Assembly (NCBI RefSeq): GCF_006738645.1
Contig: NZ_AP019700.1
Location: forward strand, 5,638,351-5,702,350
Direction of reading: 5' to 3'
Length of the DNA stretch: 64,000 nucleotides
From: Stella humosa
Lineage (GTDB): Bacteria > Pseudomonadota > Alphaproteobacteria > ATCC43930 > Allostellaceae
Shown here: positions 52,698 through 61,187 of the stretch, in pieces
Numbering within the stretch: the stretch's first letter is position 1
Layout: every line of letters starts with the position of its first letter
Notes under the pieces: model-generated
The model's input: only the letters and a program-made list of their open reading frames with translations
Databases searched by the model: none
Told to the model about the DNA's origin: nothing
Made by a program: the position numbers and the translations under genes

Positions 52698-53897
52698 TCA
52701 GATCGTCCCGGCTGCCTCCAGCGCGGCGAGCCGGTCGCGGCCTACACCCAGGCGGTCGCCCAGGATCTCGGCGTTGTTCTCGGCCACCTGGGCATCGCGG
52801 AAATCGCGCAGCGACGACTGGTCGTAGCCGCGGGGCGAATAGCCCGGCACGACCACCGGCCCGACCACCGCGTCCTCGGTCGGCACGACGTCGCCGCGGG
52901 CGAGGAAATAAGGGTCGGTCGCCAGCGTCGCGCCGTCATGCACCAGGGCGGCCTCGATGCCGAGCGGGGCCAGCGCTGCCAATGCGGCCTCGGGCGATTG
53001 CCCGGCGAACCAGGGCGCGAGCGCCGTCGCCAGCCCGGTCCGGTCGCTGTCGGCGGCAGCGCCAGCCAGCGCCGCCAACTTCTCCGCCCCGCCCGGCCGC
53101 ACCAGCAGCATCAGCCAGCGGCCGTCGGCGCAGGCAAAGCTCGGCAGCCAGTCGCCGTCGGCCTCGGCCGCACCCCAGCCATAGGGGTCGTTCGATCCCT
53201 GGCGGGCCGGGCTCCGCTGCTGCAGGTGATGGAGGGCGAGCTGGCAGTCTGCCATGCGCAGCAGCGGCTCGTAGAGGGCAAGGTCGATGTGCGTGCCGGA
53301 GCCGCCGCCGCAGTCGCGGGCGTGGAGTGCGGCCGCCACCGCGAAGAAGCCCATCAGGCCGGCCGATGTGTCGGCCAGGCTGAAGCCGACATGCTGGGGC
53401 GTCTCGGCCGGCTCGCCGGTCAGGGTCACCATGCCGCTCAGCGCCTCGGCGATCTTGCCGAATCCCGGCCGGCCCGAATCCGGCCCGGTCTGGCCGAAGC
53501 CCGACACGCTCAGCATCACCAGGCGGGGGTTGATCTTCGACAGGTGCTGCCAGCCGATGCCCAGCCGGTCCATGACGCCCGGCCGGTAGTTCTCGACCAC
53601 GACGTCGGCATCGGTCACCAACTGCTCGAACAGGGCCTTGCCCTGCGGATCCTTCAGGTTGAGCGTCACCACCCGCTTGTTGCGGGCGGCGACCCCCCAC
53701 CAGACCTGGACGCCGTTCTTGCGCCGGCCCAGCAGGCGCATGGGGTCGCCGCCGTCGCGCCGTTCCACCTTGATGACCTCGGCCCCCATGTCGGCCAGCA
53801 GGCTGCCGGCGAAGGGGCCGGCCAGCGCGATGCCGACCTCGACGACGCGCAGGCCGGCAAGCGGCAGCGGGCGCGGGGCGAGCGGGGTTCCGTCCAT
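52698..53897 (-). CDS. Family III CoA-transferase (CaiB/BaiF type)
   Basis: 399 residues. 'LAGLRVVEVGIALAGPFAGS' and 'LLADMGAEVIKVERRDGGDP' are the family start, 'VTLNLKDPQGKALFEQLV' binds CoA, and the catalytic Asp lies in 'FSLADTSAGLMG'. It moves CoA from a donor such as succinyl-CoA to a carboxylic acid. The CitE-like lyase gene 22 bases upstream and the TRAP importer suggest it activates the imported acid. Confidence 0.88.
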   Translation of the reverse strand: MDGTPLAPRPLPLAGLRVVEVGIALAGPFAGSLLADMGAEVIKVERRDGGDPMRLLGRRKNGVQVWWGVAARNKRVVTLNLKDPQGKALFEQLVTDADVVVENYRPGVMDRLGIGWQHLSKINPRLVMLSVSGFGQTGPDSGRPGFGKIAEALSGMVTLTGEPAETPQHVGFSLADTSAGLMGFFAVAAALHARDCGGGSGTHIDLALYEPLLRMADCQLALHHLQQRSPARQGSNDPYGWGAAEADGDWLPSFACADGRWLMLLVRPGGAEKLAALAGAAADSDRTGLATALAPWFAGQSPEAALAALAPLGIEAALVHDGATLATDPYFLARGDVVPTEDAVVGPVVVPGYSPRGYDQSSLRDFRDAQVAENNAEILGDRLGVGRDRLAALEAAGTI

Positions 53898-53919
53898 GGT
53901 CTGCCTCCTCGGGCGTCGG

Positions 53920-54816
53920 TCAGTCGGCCAGCACGCCGCGGCGGCGCGCCTCGCGCAGGATCTCCTCGGCGATCGGCAGCATGGCGTAGTCGACCATCTG
54001 CCCGCGATAGGTGACGGCGCCGGAGCCGGCGGCCTCGGCCGCGCGCATCGCCTCCACCAAGCCCTTGAAGTAGTCGACCTCGGCCTTTTCGGGCGTGAAG
54101 ACCTCGTTGGCGATGGCGACGTGGCTGGGATGGATCAGCACCGCGCCGGTGAAGCCCAGCGACTTGGCCCGCACGCACAGCCTGCGCACGAGGTCATGGT
54201 CGTCGAGCGCGGTGCCGATGATGCTCGACATGGGGAAGAGGGCACCGCCCGCCCGGCTGTCCAATACCATCTTGGAGGCGAGGTAGAGCTGCTCCGTCCC
54301 TTCCACGGTCGGCCGGAAGCCGGCGGCGCGCGCGACGTCGCCGATCACCGGACCGCCGACGATGCCAATGACGCCCTTCACCCGCGGGCTGGCGGCGGCC
54401 AGGTCGCGCGCGGCCCACAGGCCCTCTGCCGTCTCGGGCAGGGCCATGATCGCGACCGACCGCTGCGACAGGCCGGCCTTGCCCTCGGCATAGGCCAGCG
54501 CCACGTCGAGCTGGCGCACCTCGTCCGGCGTGCGGCCCTTGGGCAGCATGACGCCGCTGAAGCCCTCGGTGGCGACGGCGACCGCATCCTCCAGCCCACC
54601 CTGGTCGAGCGAGTTGATGCGCACGAAGGCGGGGATGCCCATCGCGTGCAGCAGGCCGATCGCCTCCCGGGCGATGGCGCGGGCCGGGATCTTGTCGGCC
54701 GGGGGCACTGCGTCCTCCAGGTCGAGCACCACCGAATCCGGCGAGAAGCGCTGGACCCGGCGGGTCCAGTCGAGCTTGTGGGCCGGGATGAACAGCATCG
54801 ATCGCAGGGGCCACAT
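53920..54816 (-). CDS. HpcH/HpaI aldolase / CitE-like CoA-ester lyase
   Basis: 298 residues. 'RSMLFIPAHKLDWTRRVQRF' and 'VVLDLEDAVPPADKIPAR' are typical of the CitE/malyl-CoA lyase group, with 'FVRINSLDQGG', 'MLPKGRTPDEVRQLD' and 'IMALPETAEGLWAARDLA' carrying the metal site. Such enzymes cleave beta-hydroxyacyl-CoA (malyl-CoA, citramalyl-CoA) to acetyl-CoA and an oxoacid. Start at 54816 after GGAG. It sits between the CoA-transferase and the TRAP genes, 17 bases from the small membrane gene. Confidence 0.83.
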   Translation of the reverse strand: MWPLRSMLFIPAHKLDWTRRVQRFSPDSVVLDLEDAVPPADKIPARAIAREAIGLLHAMGIPAFVRINSLDQGGLEDAVAVATEGFSGVMLPKGRTPDEVRQLDVALAYAEGKAGLSQRSVAIMALPETAEGLWAARDLAAASPRVKGVIGIVGGPVIGDVARAAGFRPTVEGTEQLYLASKMVLDSRAGGALFPMSSIIGTALDDHDLVRRLCVRAKSLGFTGAVLIHPSHVAIANEVFTPEKAEVDYFKGLVEAMRAAEAAGSGAVTYRGQMVDYAMLPIAEEILREARRRGVLAD

Positions 54817-54833
54817 GGCCGTCTCCTTGGTTT

Positions 54834-55037
54834 CTATTCGTTCCGGCCGTCGCCGCCGTCGCGCAGCATTTCCCACCACAGCAGCACCGTGAGCAGGAGT
54901 GCCGCCACGGCGACGAGCACGATGAAGGACAGCGGGTCGACCAGGTGCAGGCGGGTGCGGGCGCCGAAGAACCACAGGCCCGCCGTCACCAGCAGCACGC
55001 CCACCCAGACGATCGCGTTGATCCGTGCCTTGGACAT
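54834..55037 (-). CDS. Small two-helix membrane protein of the TRAP operon
   Basis: 67 residues from ATG 55037, with a strong AGGAGG upstream. Two membrane helices ('AIVWVGVLLVTAGLWFF' and 'LSFIVLVAVAALLLTVLLWW') are joined by a short loop; the tail is 'EMLRDGGDGRNE'. I do not recognise a family. It starts 11 bases after the fused TRAP permease stop. Since the permease already contains the DctQ-like part, this may be an accessory subunit. Confidence 0.65.
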   Translation of the reverse strand: MSKARINAIVWVGVLLVTAGLWFFGARTRLHLVDPLSFIVLVAVAALLLTVLLWWEMLRDGGDGRNE

Positions 55038-55048
55038 CGGTCTGCCTC

Positions 55049-57004
55049 CTACGACGCCGGGACGGGTCGGTCGCGCCGCAGGGTCGCCGGCAGGATCGCC
55101 ACGGCGGCAATCGCCAGGCCGAACAGGCGTGCCCGCCAGTCGGGCCAGGCCAGGCACAGGGTGGCGACCGCCAGCATGATCCGCACCGGCATGGTGAGGT
55201 TGCGGCCGAGCCAGCCCTCGACGCTGGCGGCCAGCAGGACGACGGCGATCAGGGTGGATACCGACACCATGGCGATCGCCGGCCAGGAGCCGCCCATCAG
55301 CAGGGCCGGGTCGTAGACGAAGATGAAGGGCACGACGAAGCCGGAGAGGGCCAGGATGAAGGCCTCGTAGCCCGTGCGGTTCAGGTCGGCGCCGGCGATG
55401 CTGGCCGCGGCATAGGCGGCCAGGGCCACCGGCGGCGTGACGTTGGCGAGGATGCCGAAATAGAAGGCGAACATGTGGCTGGGCAGTTCGGGCGCCCCCA
55501 TCCGCACCAGGGCCGGCACGATCAGCACGGCCACCGTCAGGTAGACGGCCGGCGTCGGCAGGCCCATCCCCAGCACCAGCGCGATGATCGCGGTCAGGAT
55601 CAGCGCCACCAGCAGCCGCCCGTCCGAGGCATAGACGACGAAGTCGGCCAGCAGGTTGCCCGCACCCGACACCCACAGCGTGCCCATCAGGATGCCGGCG
55701 GTGGCGACGGCGGCACCGACGGCCACGTTGTTCGACATGGCGTCGACCACGGCGTCGAGATAGCGGCCCATCGGGATGCGGGTGGAACGCGCCAGCAGCG
55801 AGGCCGCGAACAGCGATCCCAGCCCGATCAGGGCCGCCATCTGCGCCGAGAAGCCGAAGAAGAAGGGCGCGATCAGGGCGGCGATGGCGATCAGCAGGTG
55901 GCCGCCCTCGCGCATCGCCTTGGCGACGGTGGGCAGGGTCTCGGTGGTGGCGGCCAGCCCCATGCGCCGCGAACGGAACTCCACCTGGGTATGGATCGAG
56001 ACGAAGTAGATGACGGCCGGGATCACCGCGGCCACCACGATCGTCCAGTAGCTGACGCCCAGGAATGCCGCCATCAGGAAGGCGGCGGACCCCATCACCG
56101 GCGGCATGATCTGGGCGCCGGACGAGGCCACCGCCTCGATCGCGCCGGCCGTCGCCGGCTTGAAGCCGCTGCGGATCATCAGGGGGATGGTGACGTTGCC
56201 CATGCCGACCACGTTGCCGACCACGCTGCCCGAGGTCGTGCCCTGCAGCGCGCTCGAAAGGACCGAGACATGGGCGGGGCCGCCGGCGCGCCGGCCCATC
56301 AGCGCCAGCGACAGGTTCTCGAAGAAAGCGATGCCGTTGGTGCGCACCAGGATCGCGCCGAAGATCAGGAACAGCATCAGGTAGGTGGCCGCCACGCCGG
56401 TGGTGGAGCCGAAGATGCCCTGGTCCTGCATGAACAGGATCTCGACGAAGGTCTGCCAACGCACGTTGGGGGCGGCGAACATGCCGGGGAAATTCTCCCC
56501 AAAGAGCGCCTGGATCGAGAACAGCGCCACGATGATCAGCATGGCCCAGCCGATGAACCGGCGCGTCACCTCCAGCGTGACGACGATGTAGACGATGCCG
56601 AAGAAGAGGTCGGCCGGGTCGGGGAAGCCGATGCGCCGGGCGAAATCCTCGTAGTCGAGGAAGACGTGCAGCATGCCGGCAATCAGCAGGGCGACGCCGA
56701 CGAGGTCGGGCAGCAGGCCGAGCGCGCCGCGCTTGTGCCAGGGCAGCCCGCCGGCTGACCGCACCAGCAGCCCCAGCGAGCAGATGCCGCAGACGAAGGC
56801 GATGCGCTGCAGGTAGGCGGTGATGGTGCCGGCGGCGGCCGTATAGATCAGCAGCACGCCGAGGAACAGGCTGATGAAGATGATCGCGGCCGCCACGGCG
56901 CGGTGATGGAATGCGCCGTGGCGGATGACGTCCCGCAGTGGCCGCGCCGCATCCTGCTCCAGCAGGGCGAGGGCAGCGTCGGACGGCGGCGGGGCCTGGG
57001 TCAT
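55049..57004 (-). CDS. TRAP transporter fused permease (4TM + 12TM)
   Basis: 651 residues. The N-terminal part (about 25-150) holds the small DctQ-like unit; the rest is the DctM-like large permease. 'GVAATYLMLFLIFGAILVRT', 'TTSGSVVGNVVGMGNVTIPL' and 'ALVLGMGLPTPAVYLTVAVL' are typical of the fused TRAP permease of TAXI systems. It imports organic acids driven by an ion gradient. It lies 22 bases downstream of its binding protein gene. Confidence 0.92.
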   Translation of the reverse strand: MTQAPPPSDAALALLEQDAARPLRDVIRHGAFHHRAVAAAIIFISLFLGVLLIYTAAAGTITAYLQRIAFVCGICSLGLLVRSAGGLPWHKRGALGLLPDLVGVALLIAGMLHVFLDYEDFARRIGFPDPADLFFGIVYIVVTLEVTRRFIGWAMLIIVALFSIQALFGENFPGMFAAPNVRWQTFVEILFMQDQGIFGSTTGVAATYLMLFLIFGAILVRTNGIAFFENLSLALMGRRAGGPAHVSVLSSALQGTTSGSVVGNVVGMGNVTIPLMIRSGFKPATAGAIEAVASSGAQIMPPVMGSAAFLMAAFLGVSYWTIVVAAVIPAVIYFVSIHTQVEFRSRRMGLAATTETLPTVAKAMREGGHLLIAIAALIAPFFFGFSAQMAALIGLGSLFAASLLARSTRIPMGRYLDAVVDAMSNNVAVGAAVATAGILMGTLWVSGAGNLLADFVVYASDGRLLVALILTAIIALVLGMGLPTPAVYLTVAVLIVPALVRMGAPELPSHMFAFYFGILANVTPPVALAAYAAASIAGADLNRTGYEAFILALSGFVVPFIFVYDPALLMGGSWPAIAMVSVSTLIAVVLLAASVEGWLGRNLTMPVRIMLAVATLCLAWPDWRARLFGLAIAAVAILPATLRRDRPVPAS

Positions 57005-57026
57005 GGTGGGTCTTTTGCGCCAGCGA

Positions 57027-58100
57027 TCAGGACGGGGTGTCGCCGCCGTTGGCGATCACGCGGATCGGGATCTTCGCCTCGTCCAGGCACTTCTTAGCGC
57101 CGGGATGGAGCGGGATGAAGACCGTCTGCGCCGCGCGGTCGACCAGCTTTTCGGCCCCCTTCCAGGTCGGCACCACGTCGCCCCACACCTTGGCGTTCTC
57201 GGGCCAGTAGAGCTGGCGGCAGATGCGGTAGACGACGTCGTCCGGCAGGTCCTTGTGGACGACGTAGCCCAGCGAAAGCTGGACGCCGGTCACATCGTTC
57301 TTCTGCCAGTCATAGGTATTGGCCGGCAGCTCGTTGCGCACGAAGGTCGGATAGTTGTCGAGCAGCGCCTTCAGCACCGGCGGGTCCATCGAGACGATGC
57401 GCGCGGCGTTGGTGGCGGCGAACTGCGTCAGGATCGGCGAGGGATGGTCGGCCGTCAGGAACACGGCGTCGAGCTGGCCGTCGGCCAGCATGTCCATCTG
57501 CTGGTTCCAGTCGCCGGTGGCCACGACCCCGCCGTTCCGCTTGATCTGGTCGTAGGAGAGGTTGATCCCCTTCAGCCCGACATTGACCATGGTCGAGGTA
57601 AGGCTGTCGGGCGTGCCGACGCCGATGCGCTTGTTGGCGAGGTCGGCCCAGGAATTCAGGCCGGACTTGGCCGTGGTGATGAAGGTCGGGCTGGCTGACG
57701 GCCGGGTCATGAAGCCGATATAGGCGCCGACATAGCGCAGGGTCTGCATCTTCGGCCGGTTGGCGAAGGTTCGGCTGCTGTTCCAGGCGTCGACCACGCT
57801 TTCGCCGACGCCATGGCCGATCTGGGCCTCGCCGCTGTGGATGCGTGGCGGCACCGCCGTCGCCGTGCCCGGCAGGCGGCGGACGTTGATCGGCGCGCCC
57901 GGATAGGCGCGCTTGATCGCCTCTTCCATCACGGTGAAGGCGAGGTCGCTGGTGGACCCGGCCGAGCCGCGGCCGATGATCACCAGCGACTTCGGCGCCT
58001 CGTCGGCGGCGGCCGGCAGAATTGAGGCCGGCCATGCGCCGGCTGCGATCGCCGTCGCCAGCAGCAGGCGGCGGCCGACTGCGAACCTGTTCCCGTTCAT
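57027..58100 (-). CDS. TAXI family TRAP transporter solute-binding protein
   Basis: 357 residues from ATG 58100 (GGGGAGGG upstream). Sec signal to about residue 33 ('SILPAAADEA'). 'LVIIGRGSAGSTSDLAFTVM' is the TAXI ligand-site start, followed by 'HSGEAQIGHGVGESVVDAW' and 'LANKRIGVGTPDSLTSTMV'. TAXI proteins bind carboxylates such as glutamate or dicarboxylates; this one's ligand is likely the acid handled by the CoA-transferases and lyase. Confidence 0.9.
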   Translation of the reverse strand: MNGNRFAVGRRLLLATAIAAGAWPASILPAAADEAPKSLVIIGRGSAGSTSDLAFTVMEEAIKRAYPGAPINVRRLPGTATAVPPRIHSGEAQIGHGVGESVVDAWNSSRTFANRPKMQTLRYVGAYIGFMTRPSASPTFITTAKSGLNSWADLANKRIGVGTPDSLTSTMVNVGLKGINLSYDQIKRNGGVVATGDWNQQMDMLADGQLDAVFLTADHPSPILTQFAATNAARIVSMDPPVLKALLDNYPTFVRNELPANTYDWQKNDVTGVQLSLGYVVHKDLPDDVVYRICRQLYWPENAKVWGDVVPTWKGAEKLVDRAAQTVFIPLHPGAKKCLDEAKIPIRVIANGGDTPS

Positions 58101-58141
58101 GGTTCTCCCTCCCCGTGGCGTGTTCTTCTTCGATATCCTAG

Positions 58142-59344
58142 CTAGAGCCAGACGGCGCCGGAGCGGCGGAAGCCCGCGATCTCCTCGGCCGTGAATCCGG
58201 CGGCACCAAGGACGGCGTCGCTGTCGGCGCCGATCGCCGGCCCGGCATGGCGGATGGTGGCGCCCATGCCCGCGATCTTGGGCAGGATGGCCGGCTGCGG
58301 CAGCGCCTCGCCGGTGCCGTCGTCGACCCAGGCGACATCGGCGCGCGCGGCCAGGTGCGGGTCGGCCAGCACGTCGCCGGCATCGTAGAGGGGGCCGACG
58401 ACGACGTCGTTCTCGCGCACCAAGCGCATGGCGTCGGCCGAATCGTGGCGGGCCATCCATTCGGCAATGACGGCGTCCAGCGCATCCATGTTGCGCTGGC
58501 GGTCGGCGGTGGTGCGGAAGCGCGGGTCGTCGCGCAGGGCCGGGCCGCCGATCATCACCAGCAGCCGGTCGGCGACCGACGGCGTCGCGGCCGAGACCGT
58601 CAGCAGCCGACCGTCCTGCGTGCGGAAGACGTTGCCGATGTTGGAGTTCATCGGGAAGCGGTTGCCGTTGCGCGGCTCGGCCTGGCCGGTGATCGAGGCG
58701 ACGGCGAGCTGCCACTCGTTCATCCGCAGCAGCGCCTCATGCATGCCAAACGCAAGCGGGGCGGCTGTCCGCTTGCCGATGCCGGCGGCGCGCAGCTCGC
58801 ACAGCGCGCCCGCAGCGGCCAGCAGGCCGGCGGTATAGTCGGCCAGCGGGAACTCCGCCTGCATCGCCGGCCCGTCCGGCTGCCCCGTCAGCGCGACCGC
58901 GCCGGTCGCGGCGGCCGCGAGCTGCGGCGCGGTGCTCCACGGCCACAGATCCGGCCGGTCGCGGCCGGGTGCGTGCAGCGACAGGTCGAGCGGCGGCTTG
59001 GTCCCGGCGGTGGCGGCCGCCTGCCAGGAGGCGGCACTGCCGTCGTCGCGCACCAGCACCTGGGCCTGCTCCAGCAGGCGGGCGGCGATCTCCGCACCCC
59101 CCGGGGCATCCGGGTCGAGGGCCAGGGACTGCTTGTTGCGGGCGACGATCGGCCACCAGACACGGCGCACCACGGCGCTGCCGAGATGACGGATCGGTGA
59201 TCCGCCGGGCGGCTCGCAGACGATCACCCGCCCGCCGAAATCGGCGAACAGGCTGGCGGCGAACGCGCCGGCGGGCGTGCCCGCGGCTTCGATGACCGTG
59301 ATCGTCGAAAGATCCGACGCCCGGCTGGTCCCGGTATCCGGCAT
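58142..59344 (-). CDS. Second family III CoA-transferase-like protein
   Basis: 400 residues from ATG 59344, with AAGGCAGGGG upstream; an ATG at 59434 lies beyond the ribosome site. Family features are weaker than in the other copy: 'SLFADFGGRVIVCEPPGGSP', 'ARNKQSLALDPD', and the likely catalytic Asp in 'FPLADYTAGLLAAAG'. Two CaiB-type chains in one operon recall two-subunit transferases such as SmtAB. It is the first gene of the TRAP operon and divergent from the LysR regulator. Confidence 0.83.
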   Translation of the reverse strand: MPDTGTSRASDLSTITVIEAAGTPAGAFAASLFADFGGRVIVCEPPGGSPIRHLGSAVVRRVWWPIVARNKQSLALDPDAPGGAEIAARLLEQAQVLVRDDGSAASWQAAATAGTKPPLDLSLHAPGRDRPDLWPWSTAPQLAAAATGAVALTGQPDGPAMQAEFPLADYTAGLLAAAGALCELRAAGIGKRTAAPLAFGMHEALLRMNEWQLAVASITGQAEPRNGNRFPMNSNIGNVFRTQDGRLLTVSAATPSVADRLLVMIGGPALRDDPRFRTTADRQRNMDALDAVIAEWMARHDSADAMRLVRENDVVVGPLYDAGDVLADPHLAARADVAWVDDGTGEALPQPAILPKIAGMGATIRHAGPAIGADSDAVLGAAGFTAEEIAGFRRSGAVWL

Positions 59345-59392
59345 GCCCCTGCCTTCGCTGGTGTGCGCTTCCGATGCGGGTCGTTGATCGCC

Positions 59393-59423
59393 CGCTTTGT
59401 CCCGAGGGGATTGAAGCAAAGCG
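59393..59423. promoter_or_regulatory. Dyad in the LysR-divergent promoter region
   Basis: CGCTTTG (59393-59399) is repeated in inverse as CAAAGCG (59417-59423) across 17 bases, with TTGATC copies flanking both sides. The 125-base region separates the LysR gene from the CoA-transferase/TRAP operon, where LysR proteins usually bind. It is a plausible operator; a strict T-N11-A box is not obvious. Confidence 0.4.
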
Positions 59424-59469
59424 CGATTGATCACACCATTCGAAAAGTCTGACGGATTGGGAAGCCTAC

Positions 59470-60411
59470 ATGATCAATTACACCCTGGCCCAGGTCATGA
59501 CCTTCCTGGCGGTGGCCGAAACCAAGAGCTTCCGCCTGGCGGCCGAGCGCCTGCGGGTGTCGCCGCCCGCCGTCAGCCAGCGCATCCGCGAGCTGGAGGA
59601 CCGGCTGGGCGTGCGCCTCTTCCACCGCACCACCCGCTCCGTCGTGCCGACGGCCGAGGGCGAGCGGCTGGGGGCGGCCGCCCTCCAGGCGCTGGACCAG
59701 CTCCACGACGTGGCGCTGGCCTTGCGCGACGAGGCGGCACTGCGCCACGGCCGGTTCGTGGTGGCGACCCTGCCGTCGATGGCCGCGACCATCCTGCCGC
59801 TCGCCATGGCGGATTTCCGGGCTGGCCACCCCGGCGTCTCCATCGGCATGATCGACGCGCATGAGGGCCGGGCCCTGGATGCGGTCGCCCATGGCGAGGC
59901 GGCCTTCGGCCTGCTCGCGCGCGCGCCGCCGGCCCACCAGGACCTGCTGTTCACGCCGCTTTTCCGCGACGATTCGGTGGCGGTCATGGCGGTCGGCCAT
60001 CCCCTGGCGGGGCGCCGCAAGCTCGACCTGCGCGAACTGGTCGACCAGGCGCTGCTGGTGCCGGCGGTCGGCACCAGCGTGCGCGCCATGGTCGACGGGG
60101 CCTTCGCCCGCTGCGGCCTGTCGTTCGTGCCGGCCTACGAGGCGATGAACCTGACGACCCTGCTGGCCCTGGCCGAGACCGGCTTCGGCGTCACCTTCGT
60201 GCCGCGCATCTTCGCCATCCGCCTCGACCTGTCGCGGCTGAAGATGGTGCCGCTGGTGGGCCGGCCGATGCATCGCGACATCGGCATCGTCACGCCGCGT
60301 GGCCGGTCATTGTCGCCGTCGGCGGCGGCCTTCCGCGACTTCCTCGGCCGGCGCTTCGCCCGCCCCGGCCGCCACCGCGCACCCGTCCCGGCGGACATTC
60401 AGGCCATGTAG
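59470..60411 (+). CDS. LysR family transcriptional regulator
   Basis: 313 residues. The N-terminal helix-turn-helix (about 5-64) reads 'MTFLAVAETKSFRLAAERLR' and 'VSPPAVSQRIRELEDRLGVR'. The effector domain follows ('RFVVATLPSMAATILPLAMA', 'VAVMAVGHPLAG'). It likely activates the divergent CoA-transferase/TRAP/lyase operon on sensing the acid or its CoA ester. Its 3' end overlaps the convergent SDR gene by 13 bases. Confidence 0.92.
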   Translation: MINYTLAQVMTFLAVAETKSFRLAAERLRVSPPAVSQRIRELEDRLGVRLFHRTTRSVVPTAEGERLGAAALQALDQLHDVALALRDEAALRHGRFVVATLPSMAATILPLAMADFRAGHPGVSIGMIDAHEGRALDAVAHGEAAFGLLARAPPAHQDLLFTPLFRDDSVAVMAVGHPLAGRRKLDLRELVDQALLVPAVGTSVRAMVDGAFARCGLSFVPAYEAMNLTTLLALAETGFGVTFVPRIFAIRLDLSRLKMVPLVGRPMHRDIGIVTPRGRSLSPSAAAFRDFLGRRFARPGRHRAPVPADIQAM

Positions 60412-61187
60412 CCGCCGTCCATCACCAGCGGGCTGCCGATCACGAAGGACGCGGCACTGGAGCAGAGCCACAGCACGCCGTTCGCGATCTCCTCGGCCGC
60501 CGCGATGCGCCCGCGCGGCGTCTGCTGCAGGATGGCCGCGGCCTTCACCGGATCGTCGCGGAAATAGCGGGCGACCGGCGGCGTGTCGACCCAGCCGGGG
60601 CACACGGCGGTGATGCGCAGGCCGGATGCGGCGTGCTCAAGGGCCGCACTCTTGGTCAGGCCCAGTACCCCGTGCTTGGCGGCCGAATAGGCGGCCCCGC
60701 CCGGGAAGGGATAGCCGCGCAGGCCGTCGACCGACGCATTGTTGACGATGACCCCGCCGCCGCCCGCCAGCATCAGCGGGATCTGGTGGTGCATGCACAG
60801 GAAGGCCGATGTCAGGTAGCCGTCGATGGTCCGCCGCCAGTCGGCCTCGGCCGTGTCGGCGACCGGCGCCCAGCGGCCGCCGCTGCCGCCATTGTTGAAG
60901 GCATAGTCGAGCCGCCCGTGGCGCTCTGCGATGGTGGCGCAGAGCCGCTCGACGTCGCCGCCATCGGCCACGTCGCAGGCGATCCAGGATACCTGGCCGG
61001 CCAGGCCGATCTCCTTCAGCGCCGCCTCGGCCCGGTCGGCGTCCCGGCTGGCGAGGATGACCGTGGCGCCCTCGCGCGCGAAGGCCGCGACGGTGGCCAG
61101 GCCGATGCCGCTGCTGCCGCCCGTCACCAGCGCGATCTTGCCCCGCATTTCCGGGTAGCGGACCCGGTTGTCGTCGGTGCCTGTCAT
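60399..61187 (-). CDS. Short-chain dehydrogenase/reductase
   Basis: 262 residues, classical SDR. The cofactor loop is 'LVTGGSSGIGLATVAAF'. 'FNNGGSGG' replaces the usual NNAG, and the catalytic Tyr/Lys are in 'AAYSAAKHGVLGLTKSAALE', with Ser in 'NNASVDGLRGYP'. 'SRDADRAE' suggests NADP over NAD. Its substrate is unknown. It converges on the LysR gene. Confidence 0.88.
   Translation of the reverse strand: MTGTDDNRVRYPEMRGKIALVTGGSSGIGLATVAAFAREGATVILASRDADRAEAALKEIGLAGQVSWIACDVADGGDVERLCATIAERHGRLDYAFNNGGSGGRWAPVADTAEADWRRTIDGYLTSAFLCMHHQIPLMLAGGGGVIVNNASVDGLRGYPFPGGAAYSAAKHGVLGLTKSAALEHAASGLRITAVCPGWVDTPPVARYFRDDPVKAAAILQQTPRGRIAAAEEIANGVLWLCSSAASFVIGSPLVMDGGYMA

Follow-up and report, generated by a model that had tools for sequence, protein, structure and literature searches.

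A six-gene run with the parts of a probable uptake-and-cleavage pathway

Which acid, and by which steps, could an importer, two coenzyme A (CoA)-transferase chains and a lyase handle when their genes lie in one uninterrupted run? The question is raised by positions 52698-59344 of a 64,000-nucleotide stretch of Stella humosa DNA (contig NZ_AP019700.1, positions 5,638,351 to 5,702,350; hereafter the window), where the minus strand carries six co-directional genes separated by gaps of 41, 22, 11, 17 and 22 bases. In gene order, they encode a family III CoA-transferase subunit (CoATa), a TAXI-family binding protein, a fused permease of the tripartite ATP-independent periplasmic (TRAP) type, a two-helix protein of 67 amino acids, a CitE-like lyase and a second family III CoA-transferase subunit (CoATb), with a LysR gene divergent from them. 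Pfam and NCBIfam confirm the identity of every gene of the operon but that of the small protein, for which there is no family, and each gene named in the initial annotation, made from the DNA alone, was found at its place. That annotation had also remarked that a hydratase is lacking and, as far as the six genes are concerned, this is correct: neither a hydratase nor a dehydrogenase was detected among them in the Pfam and NCBIfam scans.

Because the importer, the two transferase chains and a lyase with an intact active site share one gene run, the natural reading of the locus is import of an acid, transfer of CoA to it and retro-aldol cleavage of the resulting thioester, and this outline, already proposed in the initial annotation, fits the genes described here. 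We consider it probable that the three steps hold jointly, and that the cassette would thus be a LysR-regulated uptake-and-cleavage module.

The transferase chains as a predicted heterodimer

Both transferase chains (CoATa, 58142-59344, minus strand, 400 amino acids; CoATb, 52698-53897, minus strand, 399 amino acids) belong to the family III CoA-transferases, with PF02515 scores of 208.3 and 310.3 bits, respectively, against a cut-off of 23.3, and with the catalytic Asp in both. The pairing of these two CaiB-type chains, suggested from the beginning, is strongly supported by two gene fusions, by the loss and retention of a CoA-binding segment, and by the opposite loss of the small domain in CoATb. 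In the genomes G286 and G365, the orthologues of CoATa and CoATb are fused in a single frame of 774 codons. The CoA-binding ENxRPG segment is lost in all the 11 CoATa sequences and kept in all the 11 CoATb sequences; the catalytic position is Asp in 11/11 CoATb and, in CoATa, Asp in 7/11 and Glu in 4/11.

The two domains were scored separately against three solved transferases, over 118 alignment columns in the large N-terminal part and 113 in the small domain, for 10 CoATa and 11 CoATb sequences and 15 control transferases. In the large part, CoATa scored 0.34-0.78, CoATb 1.86-2.09 and the controls 1.61-2.32; in the small domain, the order of the two chains was inverted, with 0.51-0.71 for CoATa, −1.08 to 0.00 for CoATb and 0.68-1.22 for the controls. 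When the 15 controls were taken as the reference, the large part gave 0.66-0.97 for CoATa, 1.92-2.36 for CoATb and 1.70-2.10 for the solved transferases, and the small domain 1.17-1.77, −0.85 to 0.06 and 0.70-0.96, respectively, so that the contrast between the chains was equal under either reference set. CoATa, therefore, combines a near-canonical small domain with a degenerate large one, and CoATb a canonical large domain with a degenerate small one.

Since each chain has degenerated in the opposite domain, the simplest reading is one composite site, to which CoATb contributes the large domain and CoATa the small one, and an interlocked heterodimer with a single complete site is strongly indicated by these sequence comparisons. 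Working through this one site, the heterodimer would take CoA from a thioester, with succinyl-CoA or acetyl-CoA as the probable donor, and pass it to the imported acid.

Several points limit the case for a single site. The scoring references are canonical single-gene transferases, with no solved heteromeric family III enzyme among them, and, with the solved set as reference, the small domain of CoATa lies at or just under the lower edge of the controls. The controls may also favour CoATa, because all 15 were found with a CoATa query. Moreover, a second, weak active site is possible, because CoATa keeps the Asp in 7 of the 11 sequences, the window copy included. The predicted model of the fused CoATa-CoATb protein, obtained from a two-row alignment, had a predicted local distance difference test (pLDDT) of 31.2, too low for use.

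As for the surroundings of the fused gene (L033, 7217-9308; L034), it adjoins genes of the Rv3169 family and of APH type, profiled in L033, and no CitE-like match was found at either locus in the stretch searched.

A CitE-like lyase with an intact site, outside the characterised clades

The lyase (53920-54816, minus strand, 298 amino acids; PF03328, 112.6 bits) keeps Asp32, Glu34, Asp35, Arg66, Glu128, Asp160 and Asp276, which are invariant in the 12 rows of its clade and correspond to the residues named as conserved in malyl-CoA lyases and CitE-like enzymes (PMC3832036); with PF03328 and the complete set of seven residues, it belongs to the CitE-like superfamily. Its predicted model (mean pLDDT 91.1) has as best fold matches two malyl-CoA lyases (Z 31.1 and 31.0, root-mean-square deviation 2.7 and 3.1, over 284 and 286 residues), together with human CLYBL (Z 30.3, deviation 2.9, over 285 residues). 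These enzymes differ too little in their fit for a ranking, and the absence of a family from the fold search proves nothing. A Mg2+-dependent retro-aldol cleavage of a 3-hydroxyacyl-CoA is indicated by the conserved site; an oxo acid would be released together with acetyl-CoA or one of its homologues.

Two other assignments were considered for this protein. A malyl-CoA thioesterase was rejected because of the Asp at lid position 276, where the thioesterase group is reported to have Glu (PMC3832036). That the lyase is the ordinary malyl-CoA lyase of the host was judged unlikely, as the genome has five other CitE-like matches, and for two of these (L004 and L006) malyl-CoA lyases are the best matches. 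The paralog L006 (G000:C1:5282701-5283540) has at the lid position the Glu reported for the thioesterase group.

In a maximum-likelihood tree of 25 proteins, including five characterised references, the 12 clade rows and the lyase of Sphingobium (L050) form one clade with support 100/98, which holds none of the characterised references, and a lyase from a Haladaptatus plasmid joins it next (support 99/96). The two malyl-CoA lyases, CLYBL, RipC and the Pseudomonas (S)-citramalyl-CoA lyase fall elsewhere; long branches lead to CLYBL, RipC and the Pseudomonas enzyme, and none of the five references is attached with good support. The equivalog cut-offs of NCBIfam were missed by a wide margin, with 135.9 of 443.4 bits for citE, 93.2 of 375 for RipC and 50.8 of 500 for the haloarchaeal malyl-CoA lyase. 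These three were the only NCBIfam matches at E up to 0.001; HpcH/HpaI was not listed among them, which speaks against the placement with HpcH aldolases that the initial annotation had considered, though the tree contained no HpcH sequence.

The clade is also marked by the loop that precedes the metal ligand Asp160, which is longer by five residues (four in L043) in all the 12 clade rows. This extra length is present in none of the six solved relatives and in none of the four same-genome paralogs that were aligned, out of five; CLYBL also carries extra residues, but further upstream. In the outer relatives L035 and L051 the same loop is longer by three residues, and in L050 it is longer still. 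In the CitE-like lyase Rv2498c, the backbone NH groups of residues 136-138, of which 138 is the metal Asp, are reported to hold the carboxylate of the substrate, and residues 133 and 135 to contact its 3-methyl group (PMC6689899).

Two relatives of the lyase are encoded on plasmids. On the Haladaptatus halobius plasmid (L051, archaeal), a TAXI protein is clustered with a CoA transferase and a CoA ester lyase; on the conjugative plasmid pSHV1 of Sphingobium herbicidovorans (L050), the clade lyase is flanked by two MaoC hydratases on one side and by a set with acyl-CoA dehydrogenase and thiolase on the other.

The importer and its small companion

The binding protein (57027-58100, minus strand, 357 amino acids) and the fused permease (55049-57004, minus strand, 651 amino acids) both exceed their curated cut-offs, with 144.9 bits for TIGR02122 (cut-off 84.35) and 558.5 bits for TIGR02123 (cut-off 320.65), as in a TAXI-type TRAP transporter. 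The substrates reported for TAXI systems are glutamate, 2-oxoglutarate, 2-hydroxyglutarate and o-phthalate (PMC12344293), and in VcGluP the residues Tyr45 and Gln93 are described as critical for glutamate (PMC11574862). In the six TAXI proteins of the operon that were aligned, the position of Gln93 is Val in 6/6, and the position of the Tyr is Ser in 6/6, the latter read through the Thermus structure 1us4, as the VcGluP fragment starts later. Glutamate was rejected as the ligand on these residues, and the importer would take up a different organic acid. A possible charge swap at VcGluP Glu125 was left unused because the two alignments disagree, with HMMER giving Arg and MAFFT, through a six-residue insertion, Ser.

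The two-helix membrane protein of 67 amino acids (54834-55037, minus strand), which reaches the cut-off of no Pfam family, is a genuine gene product: it is conserved and encoded at the equivalent place in all seven six-gene copies, and carries the pattern LWxFxxRxR[LM]HL[VI]D between two hydrophobic stretches. It had no match in the loci of Roseomonadaceae, which are without this permease. The protein is possibly an accessory of the importer.

A rare cassette with a recurring gene order

The identical order of six genes was found in the window and in six further genomes, alpha- or betaproteobacterial with one unclassified: S. vacuolata, SJ646 (alphaproteobacterial), Rhodospirillales HOG25 (L041), and the three betaproteobacterial or unclassified assemblies of L039, L040 and L042. 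Because it recurs in these six genomes, the order is not due to chance. As regards the single copies, that of SJ646 lies on two pieces, L030 and L037, joined by contig number and coordinates (G002:C144 fits L037), that of L040 ends inside CoATa, and the lyase tree shows almost no difference between L039 and L040.

A single scan of the genome contigs with the lyase as query returned 10 loci. The lyase is present in 4 of the 43 genomes of the order, in 2 of the 385 sampled genomes of the class and in 1 of the 398 sampled genomes of the phylum, namely that of the window. The congener G001 had no lyase match, and no LysR match at E 1e-60. The matching interval of this genome (L058), between two genes read as glutathione-synthetase-like and YifB-like, has no DNA similarity to the operon block; it looks like a site of gene turnover, because unrelated reading frames lie there and each of the two flanking genes is present again as a partial copy. 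Since few genomes carry the lyase and G001 is without the operon, this is a rare accessory cassette. No match of CoATa to known plasmids was found at E 1e-30.

In Falsiroseomonas and Roseomonas (L038 and L045; Roseomonadaceae), the genes of CoATa, the CitE-like lyase and CoATb are kept without the orthologous importer, and they converge on a TRAP permease that is not its orthologue and is accompanied by a TAXI-like (PF16868) protein. Together, these loci point to a recurring logic of import, CoA transfer and cleavage, with exceptions. In limited searches, we found no description of this cassette in the literature on TRAP or TAXI transporters with a CoA-transferase or lyase, on structures of heteromeric family III enzymes, or on SmtAB.

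The divergent regulator

The LysR-type regulator (59470-60411, plus strand; PF00126 and PF03466) is separated from CoATa by 125 bases and is conserved beside the operon in two congeners. Three loci of the Stella group share parts of the intergenic control region (59345-59469), in which an inverted repeat, rich in GC and centred around TTGAT, can be read by eye; the repeat is imperfect in the window. A neighbouring short-chain dehydrogenase/reductase gene (60399-61187) was left out of the operon because it has no match in the Stella vacuolata locus.

Which acid could be cleaved

The context of two betaproteobacterial copies points to aromatic acids and names no substrate. In L039, a pair of genes for the alpha and beta subunits of a ring-hydroxylating oxygenase lies upstream of CoATa, co-directional and 62 bases away; L042 has, 100 bases upstream of CoATa, a pair that resembles it as far as its start and position alone can tell. 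The L039 pair is nearest to the AndAc and AndAd (anthranilate dioxygenase) models, whose cut-offs it does not reach (411.3 of 750 bits and 124.1 of 230), and, among enzymes of known structure, to those for terephthalate and salicylate; divergent from it are an AMP-dependent ligase, a MmgE/PrpD protein and an ATP-binding cassette (ABC) ATPase.

The initial annotation had favoured malate or citramalate as the substrate. This choice is not borne out by a lyase that lies outside the characterised clades and below the equivalog cut-offs, has a longer loop, and in two relatives stands behind an oxygenase pair of aromatic-acid type; the outline of uptake, activation and cleavage and the pairing of the transferases stand. 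The longer loop is a suggestion of a larger acyl pocket, and only a suggestion, because the loop is modelled at low confidence. With low confidence, we propose that the substrate may be a bulkier, possibly aryl-substituted, 3-hydroxy acid; the oxo-acid half released by the lyase might then exceed glyoxylate and pyruvate in size and could carry an aryl group, as in an acid of the 2-benzylmalate type. The full proposal would be a so far undescribed CoA-dependent route, in which TAXI-TRAP uptake, a composite-site transferase and a new clade of lyases with a longer loop at the metal site convert a bulky, probably aryl-substituted malate-type acid; the products would be acetyl-CoA and a 2-oxo acid of large size, for example an arylpyruvate. 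We put it forward tentatively, as possible rather than probable.

A number of observations weigh against the proposed pathway and its bulky substrate. The nearest folds to the lyase are those of malyl-CoA and citramalyl-CoA lyases, and the role of the loop was transferred from Rv2498c through the shared metal Asp, Rv2498c itself being outside the alignment. The loop has a pLDDT of about 63, and a longer loop need not imply a larger substrate; the authors of the work on Rv2498c warn that the function of PF03328 proteins cannot be assigned from bioinformatics alone (PMC6689899). The oxygenase pair may be a mere neighbour, because no such pair was observed next to the copies of Stella and Rhodospirillales. 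The clade lyase of the Asaia assembly (L044) adjoins an acyl-CoA dehydrogenase, and no transferase was matched in the 20.9 kb covered; that of Xylophilus (L043) is accompanied by a single, distant and different transferase.

Import, CoA transfer and cleavage could also hold with a different last step, in which a small acid (malate, citramalate or 3-hydroxy-3-methylglutarate) is activated in the manner of SmtAB and split to acetyl-CoA and glyoxylate, pyruvate or acetoacetate. The retention of all seven catalytic residues and the best folds, malyl-CoA lyases and human CLYBL, are in line with such an acid, and so are reports that Rv2498c accepts citramalyl-CoA and 3-hydroxy-3-methylglutaryl-CoA (PMC6689899), that the malate CoA-transferase of C. 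aurantiacus acts also on citramalate (PMC5592240), and that a Proteus TAXI-TRAP system takes 2-oxoglutarate and 2-hydroxyglutarate (PMC12344293). On the other hand, the lyase is outside the clades of malyl-CoA lyase, CLYBL, RipC and the Pseudomonas citramalyl-CoA lyase, the citE and RipC cut-offs are far from reached and the longer loop is common to the whole clade, so that we regard a small acid as conceivable and would not expect it. A further alternative, which we think unlikely, is that the imported acid does not yet carry the 3-hydroxy group, and that a CoA-linked hydratase or dehydrogenase encoded elsewhere forms the hydroxyacyl-CoA after activation. The neighbourhoods of some clade relatives would agree with it, namely the acyl-CoA dehydrogenase of Asaia and the two MaoC hydratases with an acyl-CoA dehydrogenase on the Sphingobium plasmid; the six genes of the window operon include no such enzyme, however, and the other copies have the same six in a row.

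Finally, the lyase could catalyse the condensation instead of the cleavage, or could be a thioesterase or a repair enzyme, with a transferase that recovers CoA and an importer for an unrelated acid. The reactions of malyl-CoA lyases are reported to be reversible (PMC3832036), but the lid residue Asp276 is not the Glu of the thioesterase group, and the importer is kept in the seven copies and, in two others, replaced by a non-orthologous TRAP permease with a TAXI-like protein, which makes this explanation very improbable. We retain uptake, CoA transfer and retro-aldol cleavage as the probable course, with the bulky acid as its tentative substrate.

Relation to known systems and implications

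The cassette shares parts with the itaconate operon of Pseudomonas and with the o-phthalate cluster of Azoarcus/Aromatoleum, and is equal to neither. The Pseudomonas ict-ich-ccl operon with IctPQM is reported to bring together, as the cassette does, a TRAP importer, a CoA-transferase and a CitE-like lyase, and to proceed by import, activation and cleavage to acetyl-CoA and an oxo acid; its importer is of the DctP type instead of TAXI, and it includes the hydratase Ich, which has no counterpart in the cassette (PMC12599236). The Pseudomonas citramalyl-CoA lyase of known structure falls in another part of the tree from the window lyase. Likened by description, the o-phthalate cluster combines a TAXI-TRAP importer with a CoA-transferase, as here, but a UbiD-type decarboxylase follows where the cassette has a CitE-like lyase (PMC13040137).

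Malyl-CoA lyase, CLYBL, RipC and the Pseudomonas citramalyl-CoA lyase share with the window lyase the fold, the seven catalytic residues and the C-terminal lid Asp; the clade of the window lyase differs from them in the longer loop, and is separate with strong support. The comparison with SmtAB made in the initial annotation is apt as regards the pairing of the chains: SmtAB of Chloroflexus consists of two family III chains, and a CitE-like lyase takes part in its pathway. This succinyl-CoA:malate CoA-transferase, compared with the cassette by description, has a hydroxy-dicarboxylic acid as substrate (PMC5592240). The benzylsuccinate CoA-transferase BbsEF (9fn0) is another two-chain family III enzyme, reported to serve toluene degradation (PMC10818641), and each of its chains matches CoATa and CoATb distantly in sequence.

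A heterodimer with a single composite site, if real, would illustrate how complementary loss can give rise to two-gene enzymes in a family of homodimeric CoA-transferases. With the lyase clade, a further class of substrates would be added to a family in which the sequence does not reveal the function and, as few substrates are known for TAXI importers, the cassette may offer a tractable route to another one.

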